Assembly: GCA_004173475.1 (NCBI GenBank)
Contig: SEBU01000001.1
Span: forward strand, 558,001-622,000
Reading direction: 5' to 3'
From: Gammaproteobacteria bacterium
GTDB lineage: Bacteria; Pseudomonadota; Gammaproteobacteria; Pseudomonadales; Cellvibrionaceae
Length of the DNA stretch: 64,000 bases
In this document: positions 1 through 9,506 of the stretch, in pieces
Layout of the letters: each line of letters begins with the position of its first letter
Position numbering within the stretch: the first letter of the stretch is position 1
The notes under the pieces: generated by a model
Told to the model about the DNA's origin: nothing
What the model saw: the letters and a program-made list of their open reading frames with translations, nothing else
Database searches by the model: none
Program-made: the position numbers and the translations under genes

Positions 1-5
1 AAGTT

Positions 6-48
6 TTCAAGGTGTCACCTTGAATTTGCTGGACGCCAAGCGTCCGGC
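6..48. other. Two adjacent hairpins upstream of the giant gene
   Basis: ttcaaggtg-t-caccttgaa (6-24) and gctggacgc-caa-gcgtccggc (28-48). Confidence 0.5.
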
Positions 49-180
49 GAATTAGGTTTAAAATTTTTCGCGCGTTTGCTGTTAGATGGCGTTAGGTAAA
101 AGGAAGCATGGATTATAAAAATAACAGTGTTTCTTAATCTTTATACGAAGTTTGTATATGAAAAAAGTATTTGAGTAGCC

Positions 181-3100
181 ATGTCAAAATCAACGCGTCC
201 TCGTCGTCCACTGATCGAAGCTATAGAACCTCGGCTGCTATTTTCGGCCACTGCCGATATTGCTGTTTTTGACGATGCAACTCACTCGGTTGATTCACTC
301 TCACACGCTGCAGACAACCTGGATTTAATGCAGGTTTATCCCGACTTAATCGCGCAGCAACACGCCGTTGCCTCTGAAACCAACACCACAGATAATACGA
401 ATAATCCAACGGATAACGCTGATACGCCTATCGCATTGCCGAGCAATACTGCGCCGGAAGCCGCCACTCATTCATTGGTATTTGTGGACACGCATGTTGC
501 AGATTATCAACGTCTGGTCGACGATATTTTGAATAATCCTGACAACAAAAATATAGAAATTATTTTCCTCGATCAAAATCAGGATGGCATTACTCAGATT
601 ACCCAGAGCCTTAGTCTCTACACAAATATCACGTCGATTCATTTGATTTCACACGGCGTTCCAGGTGAATTGCAACTGGGTAGTACCGTGCTTAATGGAA
701 ATACTATTGCGCAGTTTATAAATGAATTGGCCAGCTGGCAGACAAACCTGACGAGCGAGGCCGATATTCTAATTTACGGCTGCGACCTAGCGGCAAACGA
801 TGCGGGTGTTCAACTGCTGCAACAGTTAAATCAATTTACTGGTGCAGACGTTGCCGCAAGTACCAACCTTACCGGTACTATCGCGCATGCCGATTGGATA
901 CTGGAAAAAAATATCGGGTCCGTTGAAACCGCAAGCTTGCTTAACGCACAACAAGATCTTACCTGGAGCGGTGCACTGGCGGATGTGACTTATATTAATA
1001 CCGGCTCCGGCGGCAATAATTACGCGCTGATTCCCGGGGATTTTGCAGGTCAAAGTTTTCAGTACACCAGTGGAGTAAATATTGATCGCATCAGTGTAGA
1101 AATTAATAAAACCGCAGGTGCGGCTACACAAAATTTATATCTGGAAATACGCGACAATTACAACGGTACTTTGATTGGAAGTGCGACGGTTTCATCCAGC
1201 ACACTTAGCAATGGTTTGCAGTGGGTTAATTTTAATTTTCCCGAGGTATCCCTCACCGCCTACCAGGTTTATTGGGTACGGTTGAGCACAAGCGGTAGCG
1301 ATCATTTAATTGCTGCGACTTATCACAATACGAGTGTATTCAGTAACGGTACTTTTTTTAACAACGCGGGTGGCGCAGAGCGAGATTTATCATTCGCAGT
1401 CACTAACGTGGGCGCCTCAAATTCAGCACCTACGGTTGCTATAACGCCTACAACTTACTCGGCCACTGAACAAGTTGCATTAAATTTACATGGCACCGGT
1501 ATTAGCGTTGCGGATGCCGACGGCGATAACCTGACGATCACGCTTGCTGCAACAGGTAGCAACAGCCAAATCACCGCCAATGCAGGTACAACTGGCGTGG
1601 GTATCACTTCTGGTAATGGCACTAACAGCCTGGTGGTAAACGGCACAGCTGCCCAATTGAATAATTTTTTTAACGGCACCAGCGGCGCGACACTGACCTA
1701 TCGCGTCGCCGCTGATACACCGCCGGGGAGTTCGACATTAACCATTACGGCGAGCGATGGCGTTTTAACAGCTAACGATACTGCCACTATCAACATTACC
1801 GCCGTTAATGACGCACCTGTTAATACCGTACCTACAACCCAAAATACGAACGAAGATACTGCGCTCATTTCCAGCGCAGGCAATGGCAACCGAATCAGTA
1901 TTGCCGATGTAGACGCAACGACTAACACAGTACGCACGAGTATTTCCGTAAGTCACGGCGTTCTATCGCTGGCAGGCGTCACGGGTTTAACGTTTAGCGC
2001 GGGTGACGGCACTAGCGATTCCACCATGACGTTTACCGGTACGGTGGCCAATATTAATGCGGCATTGGCAACACTCACTTATCTACCAACCGCCAACTAC
2101 AACGGCAGCGATACCTTCTCCATAATCACGAATGATTTGGGTAATAGTGGTACGGGCGGAGCCTTGAGCGATACAGATTCGTTCACCATTAATATCGCCG
2201 CCGCGAACGATGCTCCAATTACCGCACACGCTATTCCCAACCAGAATGCGCCTATAAATGTCGCTTTCAATTTTGCCTTTGCAGCTAATAGCTTCAGCGA
2301 TATAGACGCTGGCAATACACTCTCCTATACCGCGCAATTAAGTGGCGGCGGTGCGCTACCATCATGGTTAAATTTTAACGCCGCAACGCGAACCTTTAGT
2401 GGAACGCCATCGAACCTGGATGTAGGGACGCTTAATATCGATGTAACTGCCAGCGACGGTAACGGCGGCACAGTAACCGATACCTTTGCAATTATTACGT
2501 CTAGCAATGTCGACACTAATTACATAGCCACAAGCGCGAATAACACTGATTTGTTCGTGTCCACAACCCAGCAAGTCGGGCAAAGTTTCACGTACAACAG
2601 CGGCAACGGAACTTATCTTGCCAACGAAATCAGCTTGTTTGTGACTGCCAGCGGTGCAGCGCCGCAAACCGTCACCGTTCAACTATTAGATGCTTGGAAT
2701 GGAACAGTTTTAGGTAGCGACATGGTCAGTTCAGCGGCGCTAAGCCCTAACGGCAAAGAGTGGTATAGCTTCGACTTCAGCAACGTCACCCTTACAGATA
2801 ACACCACCTACTTTATAAAGGTCAGCTCCACCGGAACCGATGGCGCGGTGAAGATCGGATATCTGGGCGATGTAGTGACGCCAGGAAATGTTCTGATCAA
2901 CGGTGTGGATGACGCAACTAAAGACCTGTCTTTTAAGCTGGGCTATGAGAACGGCAGCAACCTGGCGCCCGCCGTTGCAAATCCGATAACTGATAAAACT
3001 ACTAACTCGAATGCGGCATTCAACTACACAGTTCCTGCCAATACTTTTGCAGATGCCGACCCGGTCGACACTATTATTTACCGGGCTAATCTAGTCGGTA

Positions 3101-6100
3101 GAAGCGATCTGGATTGGCTTAGCTTTGATACAACGACACGGCAATTTAGCGGTACACCGAGCCTCGCTCAAATCGGCACTTGGCAGGTGGAAGTTATTGG
3201 TACCGATAACCACGGTGCGTCTACCTCGGAATTTTTCGATATTGTAGTGGCCAATCCGAATACCGTACCTACGCCCATCCCGGATCAAAATGTCTCTGAA
3301 GATAGCGTTTACAGTTTTCAATTTACTGCCTTTAACAACGGGAATGGCGATGCCTTAACCTACACTGCGACCCAGGCAAATGGGGACCCCCTACCAACCT
3401 GGCTTAATTTTAATGCAGTAACGCGCACTTTTTCTGGCACCGCAGACGATGGCGACGTGGGCGTAAAAAGCATTAAAGTCACTGCGACTGATCCCAATGG
3501 TGGATCAATCTCGGATACGTTCACGCTTACCGTGAGCGATGTACAAGAAGCACCCTTCGTTCTTAACCCCATCGCTAACCAAACTGCAACTGGCTACGTT
3601 CCTTTTACGTTTACATTTGCTTCAGATATCGCGGCTGATCAAGACATTGGCGATTCCATTACCTATTCTGTACAACTCGCGGGCGGTGGCGCACTACCTT
3701 CGTGGCTAACTTATGACAGCGCAACGCGAACATTTAATGGAACACCGACCAACGCAAATGTCGGCACACTTTCCATTGATGTCATAGCAACCGATACGAG
3801 CAACAACACGGTAACCGATACTTTTGACATAGTGATCAGCACAGGCAACACGCCGCCCGTTAACACCATGCCCGTTACTCAATACACCAACGAAGATGTG
3901 CCACTGGTGTTTAGCGCGGGTAATGGAAATCAAATACAAATTACCGATGTGGACGCAGGTAGCGGAAATGTTCGCGTCACACTTGCCGTCATCACTGGCG
4001 AATTAAATTTAGCGAGTATCGCCGGGCTGACCTTCAACACAGGTGATGGCACTAATGACACAGCAATGGATTTCACCGGCACAGTCGCCAATATTAACAA
4101 CGCACTCGCGACACTGACTTACCACTCTGCCACTAATTATTTTGGCGCAGATACTTTTACCATTGTAACTAACGATCTCGGCAATACCGGACCTGGCGGG
4201 GCCTATAGCGATACAGATACAGTCTCAATTAATGTTCTCTCCGTAAATGATTCACCACTAGTTGCAAACGCAATCCCAAATCAAAATGCAACGGAAGACT
4301 CTGCATTTAATTTTCAATTTGCATCAAATACATTTAACGACGCAGATGCTGGCGATACCCTGACTTACACCGCGCAATTAAATGGCGGCGGCGCATTACC
4401 AAGCTGGTTAACATTTAATGCTGCAACTGGAACCTTTAGCGGAACGCCAACCAATGCAGATGTTGGAACTATAAGTATTGATGTAATTGCCAATGACGGC
4501 CATAACGGGACCGGCACTGAAACTTTTAATATTGTCATCGGAAACACTAACGATGCACCAACAGTTGCGAACGCGATTCCAAACCAAAACGCAACAGAAG
4601 ATTCTGCGTTTAATTTTCAATTTGCATCAAACACTTTTAACGATGTAGATGTTGGCAATACCCTAACTTACACAGCTCAACTCGCGGGCGGCGGTGCTTT
4701 ACCCAGCTGGTTATCGTTTGATGCTGTCACGAGAACTTTTAGCGGAACACCTACAAATGCGAATGTAGGAACTGTTTCTATTGATGTTGTTGCTGATGAT
4801 GGAAATGGCGGAACGGTTACCGACACATTCAACATCGTCATCGCAAACACGAATGACGCTCCAACAGTTGCAAACGCAATCCCAAACCAAAACGCGACAG
4901 AAGATTCTGCATTTAATTTTCAGTTCGTAGCCAATACCTTTAGCGATGCCGATGTCGGAAATACCCTAACTTACACTGCTCAACTTGCGGGTGGTGGTGC
5001 TTTACCCAGCTGGTTATCCTTTGATGCTGTCACGAGAACTTTTAGCGGAACACCTACAAATACAAATGTAGGAACTGTTTCTATTGGTGTTATTGCTGAT
5101 GACGGAAATGGAGGAACTATTACCGATACATTCAACATCGTCATTGCAAACACGAATGATGCGCCAACAGTTGCAAACTCAATTCCAAATCAAAACGCGA
5201 CAGAAGATTCTGTATTCAATTTTCAATTTGCATCCAACACCTTTAACGATGTGGATCTCGGCAATACATTAACTTACACCGCACAGTTAAATGGTGGAGG
5301 CGCACTACCAAGCTGGTTAACATTTAATGGTGCAACAGGAACCTTTAGCGGAACACCAACCAATGCAGATGTGGGGACCATAAGCATTGATGTCGTCGCC
5401 AACGATGGAAATGGTGGATCGGTCACAGATACCTTTAATCTTGTTATTGCAAACGCAAACGATGCCCCAACAGTTGCGAACGCGATTCCAAACCAAAACG
5501 CAACAGAAGATTCTGCGTTTAATTTTCAAGTTGCATCAAATACATTTAACGACTCAGATGTTGGCGATACCCTGACTTACACCGCGCAATTAAATGGCGG
5601 CGGTGCATTACCAAACTGGTTAACATTCAATACCGCAACCGGAACCTTTAGCGGAACACCGACCAATACCGATGTTGGAACAATCACGATTGACGTAACC
5701 GCAAATGATGGCAATAGTGGAACGGTTACAGATACATTTAATCTTGTAATCGCCAACGCCAACGATTCACCCACAGTTACAAACGCAATCCCAAATCAAA
5801 ACGCGACTGAAGATTCTGCATTTAACTTTCAAGTTGCATCAAATACATTTAACGACTCAGATGTTGGCGATACCCTGACTTACACCGCTCAACTAAATGG
5901 AGGCGGTGCATTACCAAGTTGGTTATCCTTTGATTCTGTCACTAGAACTTTTAGCGGAACACCTACAAATACAAATGTAGGAACTGTTTCTATTGATGTT
6001 ATTGCTGATGACGGAAATGGAGGAACTGTTACCGATACATTCAACATCGTCATTGCAAACACGAATGATGCGCCAACAGTTGCAAACGCAATTCCAAATC

Positions 6101-8013
6101 AAAACGCGACAGAAGATTCTGTATTCAATTTTCAATTTGCATCCAACACCTTTAACGATGTGGATGTTGGCAATACCTTAACTTACACCGCACAATTAAA
6201 TGGAGGCGGTGCATTACCCAGCTGGTTAACATTTAACGCTACAACCGGAACCTTTAGCGGAACGCCAATCAATGCCAATGTTGGAACTCTAAGCATCGAT
6301 GTTACGGCCACCGATGGCAATGGTGGAACAGTTACAGATACATTTAATCTTGTAATAGCCAACGCTAATGATGCCCCGACAGTTGCGAACGCAATTCCGA
6401 ATCAGAATGCGACAGAAGACTCTGCATTTAATTTTCAATTTGAAAACAACATTTTTAGCGATATTGATGCGGGAGATTCATTAAGCTACTCAGCGCAACT
6501 GAATAACGGTAGCGCGCTACCAGCATGGTTAAATTTCAATGCCGCGACACGTACATTCAGCGGAACCCCGACCCATGGAGATGAAGGCAGCTATACAATT
6601 GAGTTAAGAGCAACAGATAGTCAGGGTCAATCTGCGACAACAGATTTTGTTATAAATGTTGCACACGTAAACGAGGCACCAACAAGTAGCGTTATACCAA
6701 CATTAAATACAGTGAGAAATAGTAACGGCGATACTATAGATTTATTCGTGGTATTTTCTGACAGGGAAGATCAAGACTCGCAATTGGTTTATTCCATTGT
6801 CGGTAATACTAACAGCGCACTGATAACCCAAACACTTATCGATCCACAAACCGGAAAATTACAGCTTCATTACGCGGAAAACCAATTTGGCTCTGGTCAG
6901 ATTACTATTCGGGCAACAGACGCTCAAGGTGCTAGTGTTGACGCAAGCTTTACCGTAAATGTTGCGTTCACCAACAATTTGCCAATCAGCAATGGCATTA
7001 AAAATATTAACGTTTTTCAAGGTAGCGCCCAAAGTAGTTTGGATTTTTCCAAAGTGTTCAGCGATGTTGAAAATGGAAATAATCTGCAATACAGCCTGGT
7101 TAGCAACAGCAATCCAGAATTGCTTCAATCGATTCAATTCAATCAACAAAACCATACTTCCACTATTAGTTATAATTCGATGGCATTAGGTGAAGCTACA
7201 ATTGTTTTACGTGCGACTGATAGTGATGGTGGATTTGTTGAAAGCGTATTTAAAATTACCGTTTTACCTCTACCAATACTGCCGCTGGACCCAACGTTTA
7301 TCCCCTCAGCGGATGAAGACCAAGATCTTGTTATCTCTAACCCTGGCGGTAAAACCAATGACGAACCAACCGACAAGCCACGCGATAATGACAATAGCTT
7401 TATTCCATCTGGTGGCGGGGGGCAAATTCAGAATGGTCTGTCAGATCCGCTTGCCAATAATTTAATTGGTCATGGGTCAGGTGATTTGCCAGCTCTCATA
7501 GTTGATACGCAAGCAAATAGGACGCAAGAAATTTTTGACCGAAATCGTTACGATCGCATCCTAATGCATCAGGATTCGCAGACTAAAAAGTTAATTGATT
7601 CGTTAAGCACGCGCTCCATAGCATCATCATTAATTTCTCCGGGCGAGGGTTATAGCGCTGCAGACTCAGAAGAGTTTAATACACAGCTGCGGAAAATTCG
7701 TCGCGAAATGGACAATGTGATCGAAGAAGAAAAACAACACCGGGCAATAGTCTCCGGCATAACCTTATCGCTAACCACCGGCATTTTAATTTGGTCGTTG
7801 AGAGCGAGCAGTCTGTTACTAGCACTTATGTCTATGCTTCCACTTTGGCGCGGGGTAGACCCCTTACCAATTCTGGAGGAAGTCAAAAAACGTAAAAAAG
7901 ATATAGAAAAACAACGCAGCGACAAAAAAGCCGAAGATCAAAATGCGAAAGAAGTTGGTTACCTATTTGATAACGCCGACAGCAACGTAAAAAAAACTAA
8001 GGAAAAAAGCTGA
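181..8013 (+). CDS. Giant surface/secreted repeat protein: N-terminal LEPR-XLL-type motif, DUF4347 domain, cadherin/He_PIG-like Ig repeats, C-terminal hydrophobic segments
   Basis: 2610-aa ORF; N-terminus IEAIEPRLLFSA; DUF4347-like block HSLVFVDTHVADYQRLVDD...HLISHGVPGELQLG...ADILIYGCDLAANDAG; repeated NDAPTVANAIPNQNATEDSAFNFQF...ALPSWLxFxxxTxTFSGTPTN units; hydrophobic stretch near C-terminus followed by a Lys-rich tail. Confidence 0.9.
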   Translation: MSKSTRPRRPLIEAIEPRLLFSATADIAVFDDATHSVDSLSHAADNLDLMQVYPDLIAQQHAVASETNTTDNTNNPTDNADTPIALPSNTAPEAATHSLVFVDTHVADYQRLVDDILNNPDNKNIEIIFLDQNQDGITQITQSLSLYTNITSIHLISHGVPGELQLGSTVLNGNTIAQFINELASWQTNLTSEADILIYGCDLAANDAGVQLLQQLNQFTGADVAASTNLTGTIAHADWILEKNIGSVETASLLNAQQDLTWSGALADVTYINTGSGGNNYALIPGDFAGQSFQYTSGVNIDRISVEINKTAGAATQNLYLEIRDNYNGTLIGSATVSSSTLSNGLQWVNFNFPEVSLTAYQVYWVRLSTSGSDHLIAATYHNTSVFSNGTFFNNAGGAERDLSFAVTNVGASNSAPTVAITPTTYSATEQVALNLHGTGISVADADGDNLTITLAATGSNSQITANAGTTGVGITSGNGTNSLVVNGTAAQLNNFFNGTSGATLTYRVAADTPPGSSTLTITASDGVLTANDTATINITAVNDAPVNTVPTTQNTNEDTALISSAGNGNRISIADVDATTNTVRTSISVSHGVLSLAGVTGLTFSAGDGTSDSTMTFTGTVANINAALATLTYLPTANYNGSDTFSIITNDLGNSGTGGALSDTDSFTINIAAANDAPITAHAIPNQNAPINVAFNFAFAANSFSDIDAGNTLSYTAQLSGGGALPSWLNFNAATRTFSGTPSNLDVGTLNIDVTASDGNGGTVTDTFAIITSSNVDTNYIATSANNTDLFVSTTQQVGQSFTYNSGNGTYLANEISLFVTASGAAPQTVTVQLLDAWNGTVLGSDMVSSAALSPNGKEWYSFDFSNVTLTDNTTYFIKVSSTGTDGAVKIGYLGDVVTPGNVLINGVDDATKDLSFKLGYENGSNLAPAVANPITDKTTNSNAAFNYTVPANTFADADPVDTIIYRANLVGRSDLDWLSFDTTTRQFSGTPSLAQIGTWQVEVIGTDNHGASTSEFFDIVVANPNTVPTPIPDQNVSEDSVYSFQFTAFNNGNGDALTYTATQANGDPLPTWLNFNAVTRTFSGTADDGDVGVKSIKVTATDPNGGSISDTFTLTVSDVQEAPFVLNPIANQTATGYVPFTFTFASDIAADQDIGDSITYSVQLAGGGALPSWLTYDSATRTFNGTPTNANVGTLSIDVIATDTSNNTVTDTFDIVISTGNTPPVNTMPVTQYTNEDVPLVFSAGNGNQIQITDVDAGSGNVRVTLAVITGELNLASIAGLTFNTGDGTNDTAMDFTGTVANINNALATLTYHSATNYFGADTFTIVTNDLGNTGPGGAYSDTDTVSINVLSVNDSPLVANAIPNQNATEDSAFNFQFASNTFNDADAGDTLTYTAQLNGGGALPSWLTFNAATGTFSGTPTNADVGTISIDVIANDGHNGTGTETFNIVIGNTNDAPTVANAIPNQNATEDSAFNFQFASNTFNDVDVGNTLTYTAQLAGGGALPSWLSFDAVTRTFSGTPTNANVGTVSIDVVADDGNGGTVTDTFNIVIANTNDAPTVANAIPNQNATEDSAFNFQFVANTFSDADVGNTLTYTAQLAGGGALPSWLSFDAVTRTFSGTPTNTNVGTVSIGVIADDGNGGTITDTFNIVIANTNDAPTVANSIPNQNATEDSVFNFQFASNTFNDVDLGNTLTYTAQLNGGGALPSWLTFNGATGTFSGTPTNADVGTISIDVVANDGNGGSVTDTFNLVIANANDAPTVANAIPNQNATEDSAFNFQVASNTFNDSDVGDTLTYTAQLNGGGALPNWLTFNTATGTFSGTPTNTDVGTITIDVTANDGNSGTVTDTFNLVIANANDSPTVTNAIPNQNATEDSAFNFQVASNTFNDSDVGDTLTYTAQLNGGGALPSWLSFDSVTRTFSGTPTNTNVGTVSIDVIADDGNGGTVTDTFNIVIANTNDAPTVANAIPNQNATEDSVFNFQFASNTFNDVDVGNTLTYTAQLNGGGALPSWLTFNATTGTFSGTPINANVGTLSIDVTATDGNGGTVTDTFNLVIANANDAPTVANAIPNQNATEDSAFNFQFENNIFSDIDAGDSLSYSAQLNNGSALPAWLNFNAATRTFSGTPTHGDEGSYTIELRATDSQGQSATTDFVINVAHVNEAPTSSVIPTLNTVRNSNGDTIDLFVVFSDREDQDSQLVYSIVGNTNSALITQTLIDPQTGKLQLHYAENQFGSGQITIRATDAQGASVDASFTVNVAFTNNLPISNGIKNINVFQGSAQSSLDFSKVFSDVENGNNLQYSLVSNSNPELLQSIQFNQQNHTSTISYNSMALGEATIVLRATDSDGGFVESVFKITVLPLPILPLDPTFIPSADEDQDLVISNPGGKTNDEPTDKPRDNDNSFIPSGGGGQIQNGLSDPLANNLIGHGSGDLPALIVDTQANRTQEIFDRNRYDRILMHQDSQTKKLIDSLSTRSIASSLISPGEGYSAADSEEFNTQLRKIRREMDNVIEEEKQHRAIVSGITLSLTTGILIWSLRASSLLLALMSMLPLWRGVDPLPILEEVKKRKKDIEKQRSDKKAEDQNAKEVGYLFDNADSNVKKTKEKS
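4261..6684 (+). repeat. Eight tandem 303-bp (101-aa) repeat units inside the giant CDS
   Basis: The codon after 'NDAPT/NDSPT' (VANAIPNQNATEDS) falls at 4261, 4564, 4867, 5170, 5473, 5776, 6079 and 6382; spacing is exactly 303 nt, and the degenerate next unit (NEAPTS) falls at 6685. Confidence 0.93.
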
Positions 8014-9506
8014 TGATTCGTATAACGCCTGCCATACGTTTAAGCATAGGCCTTATTGTTTTGGTCGTATCCATTTTGCTATTGGCACAAGCACTGGGTT
8101 TAACGTCCGGAACTGAAAAACAACAGTTTGAAATCCGCAAACAAACCGCCGAAACACTTGCAGCGCAAATAAATTTGGCGGTCAGCCGTGGCGATGACGG
8201 TCTGATACGCGACCTTATGAATACAGCTATAGAAAGAAATGCCGACATGCAGTCTGCGGCGATTCGAAAAACTGATGGCGAAGTACTTATTGAAACCAAT
8301 AATCATGATGAGTTTTGGAAAGGTGCGGAAGCCAAAGTATCTACGCCAACTCACATGCGTTTTCCAATGATCATTAATAGCGTTACTCGCGCTAACACCG
8401 AAATTACTTTTAAACCTCTAACTAGTGAAACCCATCCGCTGTTTCATATTCCCACATTTATCGTGCTCATTATTTTTGTGGTAGTCAGTGGTTTTATAGG
8501 TTTCTGGTTATACATTCGCCGTGTCCTTAAACATCTTGATCCAAGCGCCGTTGTACCTGCACGTGTGCGCAATGCGCTGAATATTTTGGCAGAAGGTGTT
8601 TTGATTTTGGATAAGCGCGAACATATTGTATTGGCAAATACATCGATATTGGAAAATCTGAATAAATCCGAACAAAATCTTGTAGGAAAGAAAGCGAGTA
8701 GTTTGGGGTGGCAACTTATCGATAATAAAAATAGCAAAGAATTTCCATGGCTTACTGCATTATCCTCAAATACAAAGCAAGTGAATGTCCACCTTGCACT
8801 CCCGAATGGTGAACAAACAAAAACGTTTCGCGTTAACGCCGTCCCTATACTCGACGCTAAAGGTTCGAGCCAGGGTACAATCGCAGTTTTTGACGATATA
8901 ACTGAGCTGGAAGAAAAAAGGCGGCAACTGGAAGAGACGGTTAAAGAACTGGCGAAATCCCGCACAGCAATTGAATCAAAAAATAAAGAATTAACTTTTT
9001 TAGCAACACGCGACCCACTTACCAATTGTTTCAACCGTCGCGCGCTTTACGAATATCTCGAAGGAAAAGCTGCTGGCTCACTCAAACCTAACACAGATTA
9101 CGCGTGCATCATGGCTGACATAGATCATTTCAAGCGCGTAAATGATACCCATGGCCACGGCGTAGGCGACGCCGTTATTAAAACAATGGCAAATACAATA
9201 AAAGAAGTTGTAAGGGAAAAAGATATAGTCGCCCGTATGGGTGGTGAAGAATTCTGCATTATTTTGCCCAACACCTCATTGGACGTAGCACGCAATATTG
9301 CCGAACGCTGCCGCGAAAGTATCAGTTCAAAAATGACCAGGGGAGTAAAAGTCACCGCAAGTTTCGGTGTAACTTCAATAGCTCTAGGCGCAAAAGACTC
9401 CGCCACTATTATTCACCAGGCCGACGAAGCACTTTATGCATCAAAAGAAAACGGAAGAAATCGCGTAACCTCGTGGAGCACAAGTATTACTTCGAAAGGT
9501 GGGTAG
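8013..9506 (+). CDS. Membrane diguanylate cyclase (TM - periplasmic region - TM - PAS - GGDEF with GGEEF motif)
   Basis: DPLTNCFNRRALYEYL...DIDHFKRVNDTHGHGVGD...REKDIVARMGGEEFCIILP; two hydrophobic segments; PAS-like VLILDKREHIVLANTSILENL. Confidence 0.93.
   Translation: MIRITPAIRLSIGLIVLVVSILLLAQALGLTSGTEKQQFEIRKQTAETLAAQINLAVSRGDDGLIRDLMNTAIERNADMQSAAIRKTDGEVLIETNNHDEFWKGAEAKVSTPTHMRFPMIINSVTRANTEITFKPLTSETHPLFHIPTFIVLIIFVVVSGFIGFWLYIRRVLKHLDPSAVVPARVRNALNILAEGVLILDKREHIVLANTSILENLNKSEQNLVGKKASSLGWQLIDNKNSKEFPWLTALSSNTKQVNVHLALPNGEQTKTFRVNAVPILDAKGSSQGTIAVFDDITELEEKRRQLEETVKELAKSRTAIESKNKELTFLATRDPLTNCFNRRALYEYLEGKAAGSLKPNTDYACIMADIDHFKRVNDTHGHGVGDAVIKTMANTIKEVVREKDIVARMGGEEFCIILPNTSLDVARNIAERCRESISSKMTRGVKVTASFGVTSIALGAKDSATIIHQADEALYASKENGRNRVTSWSTSITSKGG

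Follow-up and report, generated by a model that had tools for sequence, protein, structure and literature searches.

The stretch of DNA analyzed here (the window) comprises 64,000 nucleotides of a Cellvibrionaceae contig (C1:558001-622000; SEBU01000001.1). At its left end it carries the gene for a giant surface protein, followed by the gene for a membrane-bound PAS-GGDEF diguanylate cyclase. On balance, these two genes probably make up the 3′ end of a five-gene export-and-signaling operon, in which the cyclase would act as a sensor that reads the membrane anchor of the giant and sets cyclic di-GMP (c-di-GMP). The anatomy of this module and the linkage of its parts are well supported. More tentatively, and stopping short of calling it probable, we propose that the module represents a previously undescribed envelope system of several phyla: an exporter built from an RRE domain, a site-2 protease and an HlyD part would recognize a LEPR-XLL leader on the giant, and a C-terminal membrane motif of the giant, termed CT, would act as ligand for a dedicated sensor whose outputs can be exchanged, coupling secretion or pulling of the giant to c-di-GMP. 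No description of the module was found in the literature searched, which omits most subscription journals.

Comparison of sequences strongly supports the conclusion that the giant-sensor pair is conserved beyond chance. When the first 326 residues of the cyclase were searched against a sample of 144 genomes of the family, matches were obtained in 45 genomes and were strong (E below 1e-20) in 34. At all 34 loci, the same-strand open reading frame (ORF) directly upstream ends in a piece homologous to the C terminus of the giant. A profile of CT alone (E below 1e-15) recovered the identical 34 genomes and no others; within genus g1, for example, 16 genomes have both CT and sensor and 5 have neither, and in g3 both are present in one genome of four. 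A class sample of 369 genomes gave the sensor in 25 and CT in 23, with 22 common to the two sets. We also searched an alignment of the sensor against 84,980 species genomes, which yielded 291 related stretches, and analyzed the best 80 of the 291. These include Cellvibrio, Gilvimarinus, Methylomonas, Neptunomonas, Desulfobacterota, Planctomycetota, Campylobacterota, Nitrospira and Myxococcota, and 14 of the 80 come from the window's own family. A CT-bearing ORF stands directly upstream of the sensor at 67 of the 76 loci for which upstream DNA was available (14 of the 67 belong to the window's family), or at 68 when L163 is added on inspection. The sequence-only reading of this DNA had proposed a dedicated two-gene module and had set a search for a conserved giant-plus-GGDEF neighborhood as its test beforehand. 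Such a neighborhood was found, so the objection that relatives lack one falls away; the module is indeed dedicated and conserved, with adjacency across phyla, but it is larger than two genes, since the pair belongs to a five-gene operon with exporter-like genes. As a separate observation, a LEPR/DUF4347 giant lies downstream of the sensor at L105:3351, L109:3958, L131:12042 and the right end of L143; in L105 and L109 it does so besides an upstream one, so that two giants flank one sensor.

The DNA to the left of the window was fetched and read for ORFs. The five genes lie on one strand (plus) in the order GAF-HlyD, RRE-M50-HlyD, HlyD adaptor, giant and sensor. By ORF and Pfam/NCBIfam analysis, the first encodes 615 residues with a GAF-like part and an HlyD_D23 region (C1:553104-554951), the second 718 residues (C1:554948-557104), and the third a MexA-like periplasmic adaptor of the HlyD/RND_mfp type with 281 residues (C1:557210-558055, its 3′ end occupying window positions 1 to 55). 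An unrelated gene for a MATCAP-type carboxypeptidase lies about 600 bases upstream of GAF-HlyD. Past the cyclase, the next sizeable ORFs run on the other strand, which suggests that the cyclase is the last gene of the operon. Within the operon no ABC ATPase was detected, a result that applies to the operon genes only, as an unlinked ABC protein is possible.

For the second gene product, Pfam and NCBIfam gave PqqD only as a subthreshold match to the N terminus. A profile of this region built from 31 sequences and compared with PDB chains found PqqD (3g2b) as the best match at 1.1e-4, with two PqqC/D chains completing the top three. The AlphaFold2 model (predicted local distance difference test score, 87) shows three strands followed by three helices. 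Fold and profile similarity together mark the region as a predicted PqqD-like RRE domain. In the M50 core, H211, E212, H215, N307, P308 and D313 are invariant in 39 sequences, so that both HExxH and NPxxxxDG are present, the second motif being conserved in the form NxNPxxxxDG. The core scored 138.9 bits with daptide_HExxH, below the cut-off of 300, and the NCBIfam copy searched holds no curated model of the exporter family itself. The periplasmic HlyD part matches MexA, AcrA and MacA. Gene pairs of HlyD and M50-HlyD occur in many members of the class (L058-L086), so the reach of this exporter family extends beyond the giant/sensor module. In four relatives (L134:4018-6069, L146:6383-8392, L156:2870-4921 and L162:3320-5434), a SecA-like ORF of 670 to 705 residues, shorter than canonical SecA, stands just after the M50 gene; SecA_DEAD was matched at about 1e-87 to 1e-92 in L134, L146 and L162, and the L156 ORF was assigned by position, length and a similar start. 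We rejected a SecA-like motor as a universal part of the system, as the genome studied here has canonical SecA only.

The complete giants that we tabulated separate into combinations of parts. Those with both leader and CT stand beside exporter and sensor in 24 cases and beside the sensor in 5, whose exporter lies farther away or outside the DNA that was fetched. In genus g22, three giants (L169, L170 and L173) have a variant leader, LEKR-[IV]LLDA, and an M50 exporter but neither CT nor sensor. In 12 leaderless DUF4347 proteins CT, exporter and sensor are all absent. Most other rows represent giants that sequence gaps or frameshifts have split, or giants whose leader the pattern missed. The tabulated giants therefore indicate that the leader goes with the exporter and CT goes with the sensor. 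The divergent M50-HlyD genes of g22 (L169:1541-3796, L170:9019-11136 and L173:1866-3998) offer a natural control for the pairing of leader and exporter.

The sensor half, composed of a transmembrane (TM) segment, a periplasmic domain, a second TM segment and a PAS domain, is fused to different outputs. Over 115 rows, some of which count one contig twice, the output was GGDEF in 54, GGDEF-EAL (reported in one or two pieces) in 39 and histidine kinase in 22. The kinases mostly carry receiver and Hpt domains, and at 15 of the 22 kinase-type loci the next gene encodes a receiver plus GGDEF and/or EAL domains. Nearly all GGDEF forms retain an intact GGEEF, and 23 of 25 close relatives show the I-site pattern. 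Across these rows, the sensor is the constant part and the output is interchangeable, mostly in or beside c-di-GMP metabolism. We favor a signal that runs from the giant to c-di-GMP because the conserved half can meet the giant, while the variable half writes the signal.

The cyclase of the window (497 residues, 8013 to 9506, plus strand) begins with the sensor half, whose TM1, periplasmic domain of about 105 residues and TM2 span 8013 to 8528 by hydropathy, Pfam and alignment. No Pfam model matched the periplasmic domain above threshold, and below threshold it resembles sCache_4, LapD_MoxY_N and CHASE8. The PAS domain (8562 to 8912; domain scan and alignments) starts in a conserved juxtamembrane stretch, LDPSxVVPxRVRNALN. 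The GGDEF domain (9003 to 9464) scored 147 bits in Pfam, and its GG[DE]EF motif is intact as GGEEF at residues 410 to 414 (9240 to 9254). By this motif the protein is of the active type and is predicted to synthesize c-di-GMP. As the sequence-only reading had noted, an RxxD (residues 401 to 404; 9213 to 9224) precedes GGEEF by five residues, giving REKD-IVARM-GGEEF at residues 401 to 414, the standard spacing of an I-site. The same reading had described the stop codon of the giant as overlapping the start codon of the cyclase, and this is correct: the junction reads ...aaggaaaaaagcTGATGatt, with TGA at 8011 to 8013 and ATG at 8013 to 8015 sharing one base (TGATG, 8011 to 8015, plus strand) and AAGGA about 9 nucleotides upstream of the ATG. 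Translational coupling had been suggested from this overlap, which is real in this genome but occurs in a minority of orthologs, the others having gaps of about 6 to 121 nucleotides; we therefore rejected it as a defining feature. A scan for independent promoters returned fewer matches than in shuffled sequences.

The giant (2,610 residues, 181 to 8013, plus strand) and the cyclase have the ORF coordinates described earlier, and domain scans divide the giant into several parts. The LEPR-XLL leader motif occupies residues 11 to 24 (211 to 252), as judged by NF012209, alignment conservation and hydropathy; the LEPR-8K model (NF012209) scored 17.6 bits against a cut-off of 17, which places the protein in the LEPR-XLL family. 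Hydropathy revealed no Sec-type hydrophobic core in this leader. A DUF4347 domain follows at residues 99 to 265 (475 to 975). Twelve stretches matched He_PIG, and an array of immunoglobulin (Ig)-like (He_PIG) repeats of about 101 residues extends from 4267 to 6690 within a longer Ig/cadherin-like region (domain scans and hydropathy). CT lies at residues 2520 to 2577 (7738 to 7911), reads ...GITLSLTTGILIWSLRASSLLLALMSMLPLWRGVDPLPIL... and is followed by a basic tail; it overlaps the hydrophobic segments that hydropathy places near the C terminus at residues 2521 to 2556 approximately. An alignment of giant ends from 38 loci defines CT as a 50-residue membrane motif, G.T.SLT.G...W.LR.GSLL..L.S.LP.WR..DPLPIL, in which G, P and DP are invariant. 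No RTX-type C-terminal signal was detected in the giant.

The DUF4347 domain scored 168.8 bits in Pfam, and H158 and C201 are invariant across 31 sequences. In a Foldseek search, its AlphaFold2 model matched Tce1/PA0256 (2.9e-6, the top match), legumain (4e-4) and caspases (about 2e-3). The domain is thus modeled as clan-CD cysteine-peptidase-like, with a caspase/legumain-like fold and a His/Cys dyad, and as a putative peptidase. PA0256 is a DUF4347 protein (PMC8262886), and for Tce1 a His/Cys dyad and putative cysteine-protease function have been described (PMC13323088). The two share the domain and the putative Cys/His dyad, but Tce1 is a small cargo effector of a type VI secretion system, whereas here a giant surface protein carries DUF4347 as its N-terminal domain. 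DUF4347 was rejected as a marker of the system, as it also occurs in the 12 leaderless proteins mentioned above. Leaderless DUF4347 giants form a separate conserved pair, each lying immediately after a gene of about 280 codons in the absence of exporter, CT and sensor (L171, L172, L178, L181, L182, L183, L185, L186, L187 and L188). The product of this gene carries HFISGLPRSGSTLLAGxLRQNP near its start and is sulfotransferase-like by sequence.

We propose that these parts work as follows. PqqD-type RRE domains bind leader peptides in systems for ribosomally synthesized and posttranslationally modified peptides (RiPPs), and because of this the RRE domain of M50-HlyD is proposed to bind the LEPR-XLL leader; leader and exporter occur together. 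M50-HlyD, GAF-HlyD and the MexA-like adaptor would then convey the giant across the periplasm to a presumed TolC-type channel in the outer membrane. Export would proceed without a dedicated ABC ATPase, a SecA-like motor perhaps being added in some relatives. The giant would be held in the inner membrane by CT, and the adjacent membrane sensor would touch this anchor and shift its output when the giant arrives, is pulled or is released. Cyclic di-GMP would thereby report the state of one surface protein. M50 may cleave the giant at the membrane, and DUF4347 may do so near the N terminus, the latter role being a guess.

Several points weigh against this proposal. The direction of signaling, from giant to c-di-GMP, we infer from output swapping alone, which suggests but does not prove it, and the PqqD similarity of the M50-HlyD N terminus is moderate. 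The Fisher P values for co-occurrence are tiny but overstate significance, the genomes being related. Nine wide-scan sensor loci appear without CT directly upstream in the tabulation, one of them (L163) having it on inspection; in L112, L131 and L143 the giant is on the sensor's other side, and in several other exceptions an adaptor is directly upstream of the sensor. Five paralogous giants (L174, L175, L177, L179 and L180) have leader and CT but no adjacent operon, the full operon being elsewhere in the genome. These paralogs are possibly alternative cargo for the same machinery.

The sequence-only reading had favored the opposite direction, in which the cyclase would raise local c-di-GMP and thereby control how the giant is secreted or retained at the surface, much as LapA is controlled by LapD. 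Strict linkage within one operon, the active-type GGEEF and widespread I-site pattern, and the GAF-like domains of GAF-HlyD, which could bind nucleotide, are all compatible with such control. However, the operon encodes no PilZ protein, LapD-like or other degenerate EAL/GGDEF receptor, or LapG; a module that delivers c-di-GMP should retain its output domain, yet it is the sensor half that is conserved, with GGDEF-EAL or a kinase taking the place of the output domain; and the M50 exporter, present in 60 family genomes, occurs without the sensor in 26 of them. Nothing that we found shows control of display or secretion by the cyclase, and we regard it as unlikely. More doubtful still is a sensor that follows the exporter, or the load on the envelope while secretion is under way, instead of the giant's anchor. 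Exporter and sensor share an operon, and the M50 exporter is present in all 34 family sensor genomes, but many genomes have the exporter and lack the sensor, whereas in the family sample neither CT nor the sensor occurs without the other. Least probable is simple cotranscription, in which a matrix protein of biofilms and a cyclase of general function make no direct contact. Although operons often group related but noninteracting genes, and the stop/start overlap seen here hints at shared translation, the short CT co-occurs exactly with the sensor half across phyla and that half is kept while outputs are exchanged.

Reading of the giant's anchor by the sensor, our preferred explanation, touches two open questions, namely, how surface contact leads to c-di-GMP and how proteins of thousands of residues are exported without a standard signal. 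Both are joined in one conserved operon, and the tail motif of about 50 residues together with the sensor of about 300 residues, coinherited across phyla, provides a genetic handle. The adhesin-to-messenger direction is thereby made directly testable, and the LEPR-XLL leader and DUF4347 gain a lead to function.

The system resembles LapA/LapD/LapG, as well as BpfA and CdrA, in that a giant repetitive surface protein is tied genetically to a membrane protein of the GGDEF family, and the sensor's periplasmic domain has the subthreshold resemblance to LapD_MoxY_N given above. In the Lap system the receptor, LapD, is degenerate, and LapA comes with LapG and an ABC exporter. The giant described here differs from LapA in its LEPR leader, DUF4347 and CT, and its partner is an active-type cyclase with an intact GGEEF and no EAL, not a degenerate EAL receptor. 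The operon has no LapG, ABC exporter or degenerate receptor (the genome's LapG-family gene lies on a different contig, C42), and we rejected membership of the Lap group. Type I secretion (HlyBD-TolC) shares HlyD/MexA-type adaptors and a probable TolC-type exit with our system, but here RRE-M50-HlyD takes the place of an ABC ATPase in the operon, the leader is N-terminal and an RTX-type signal was not detected. Type I secretion calls for an ABC exporter and a membrane-fusion protein beside the substrate, and assignment to it is not supported by the operon, whose genes encode proteins of the membrane-fusion type but no ABC ATPase. The M50 proteins of RiPP systems (daptide HExxH and YydH/LiaK) and NHLM HlyD exporters have in common with M50-HlyD the M50 core and a leader-binding-type PqqD-like domain; their cargo is a short peptide, whereas here it would be a surface protein of several thousand residues, and here an HlyD domain is fused. 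In the PilY1-SadC system, a membrane diguanylate cyclase receives its input from a surface protein. The two systems are alike in this adhesin-to-cyclase type of surface sensing, although the proteins are unrelated, and in the present system a short membrane motif at the C terminus would provide the link, with an output domain that is interchangeable.

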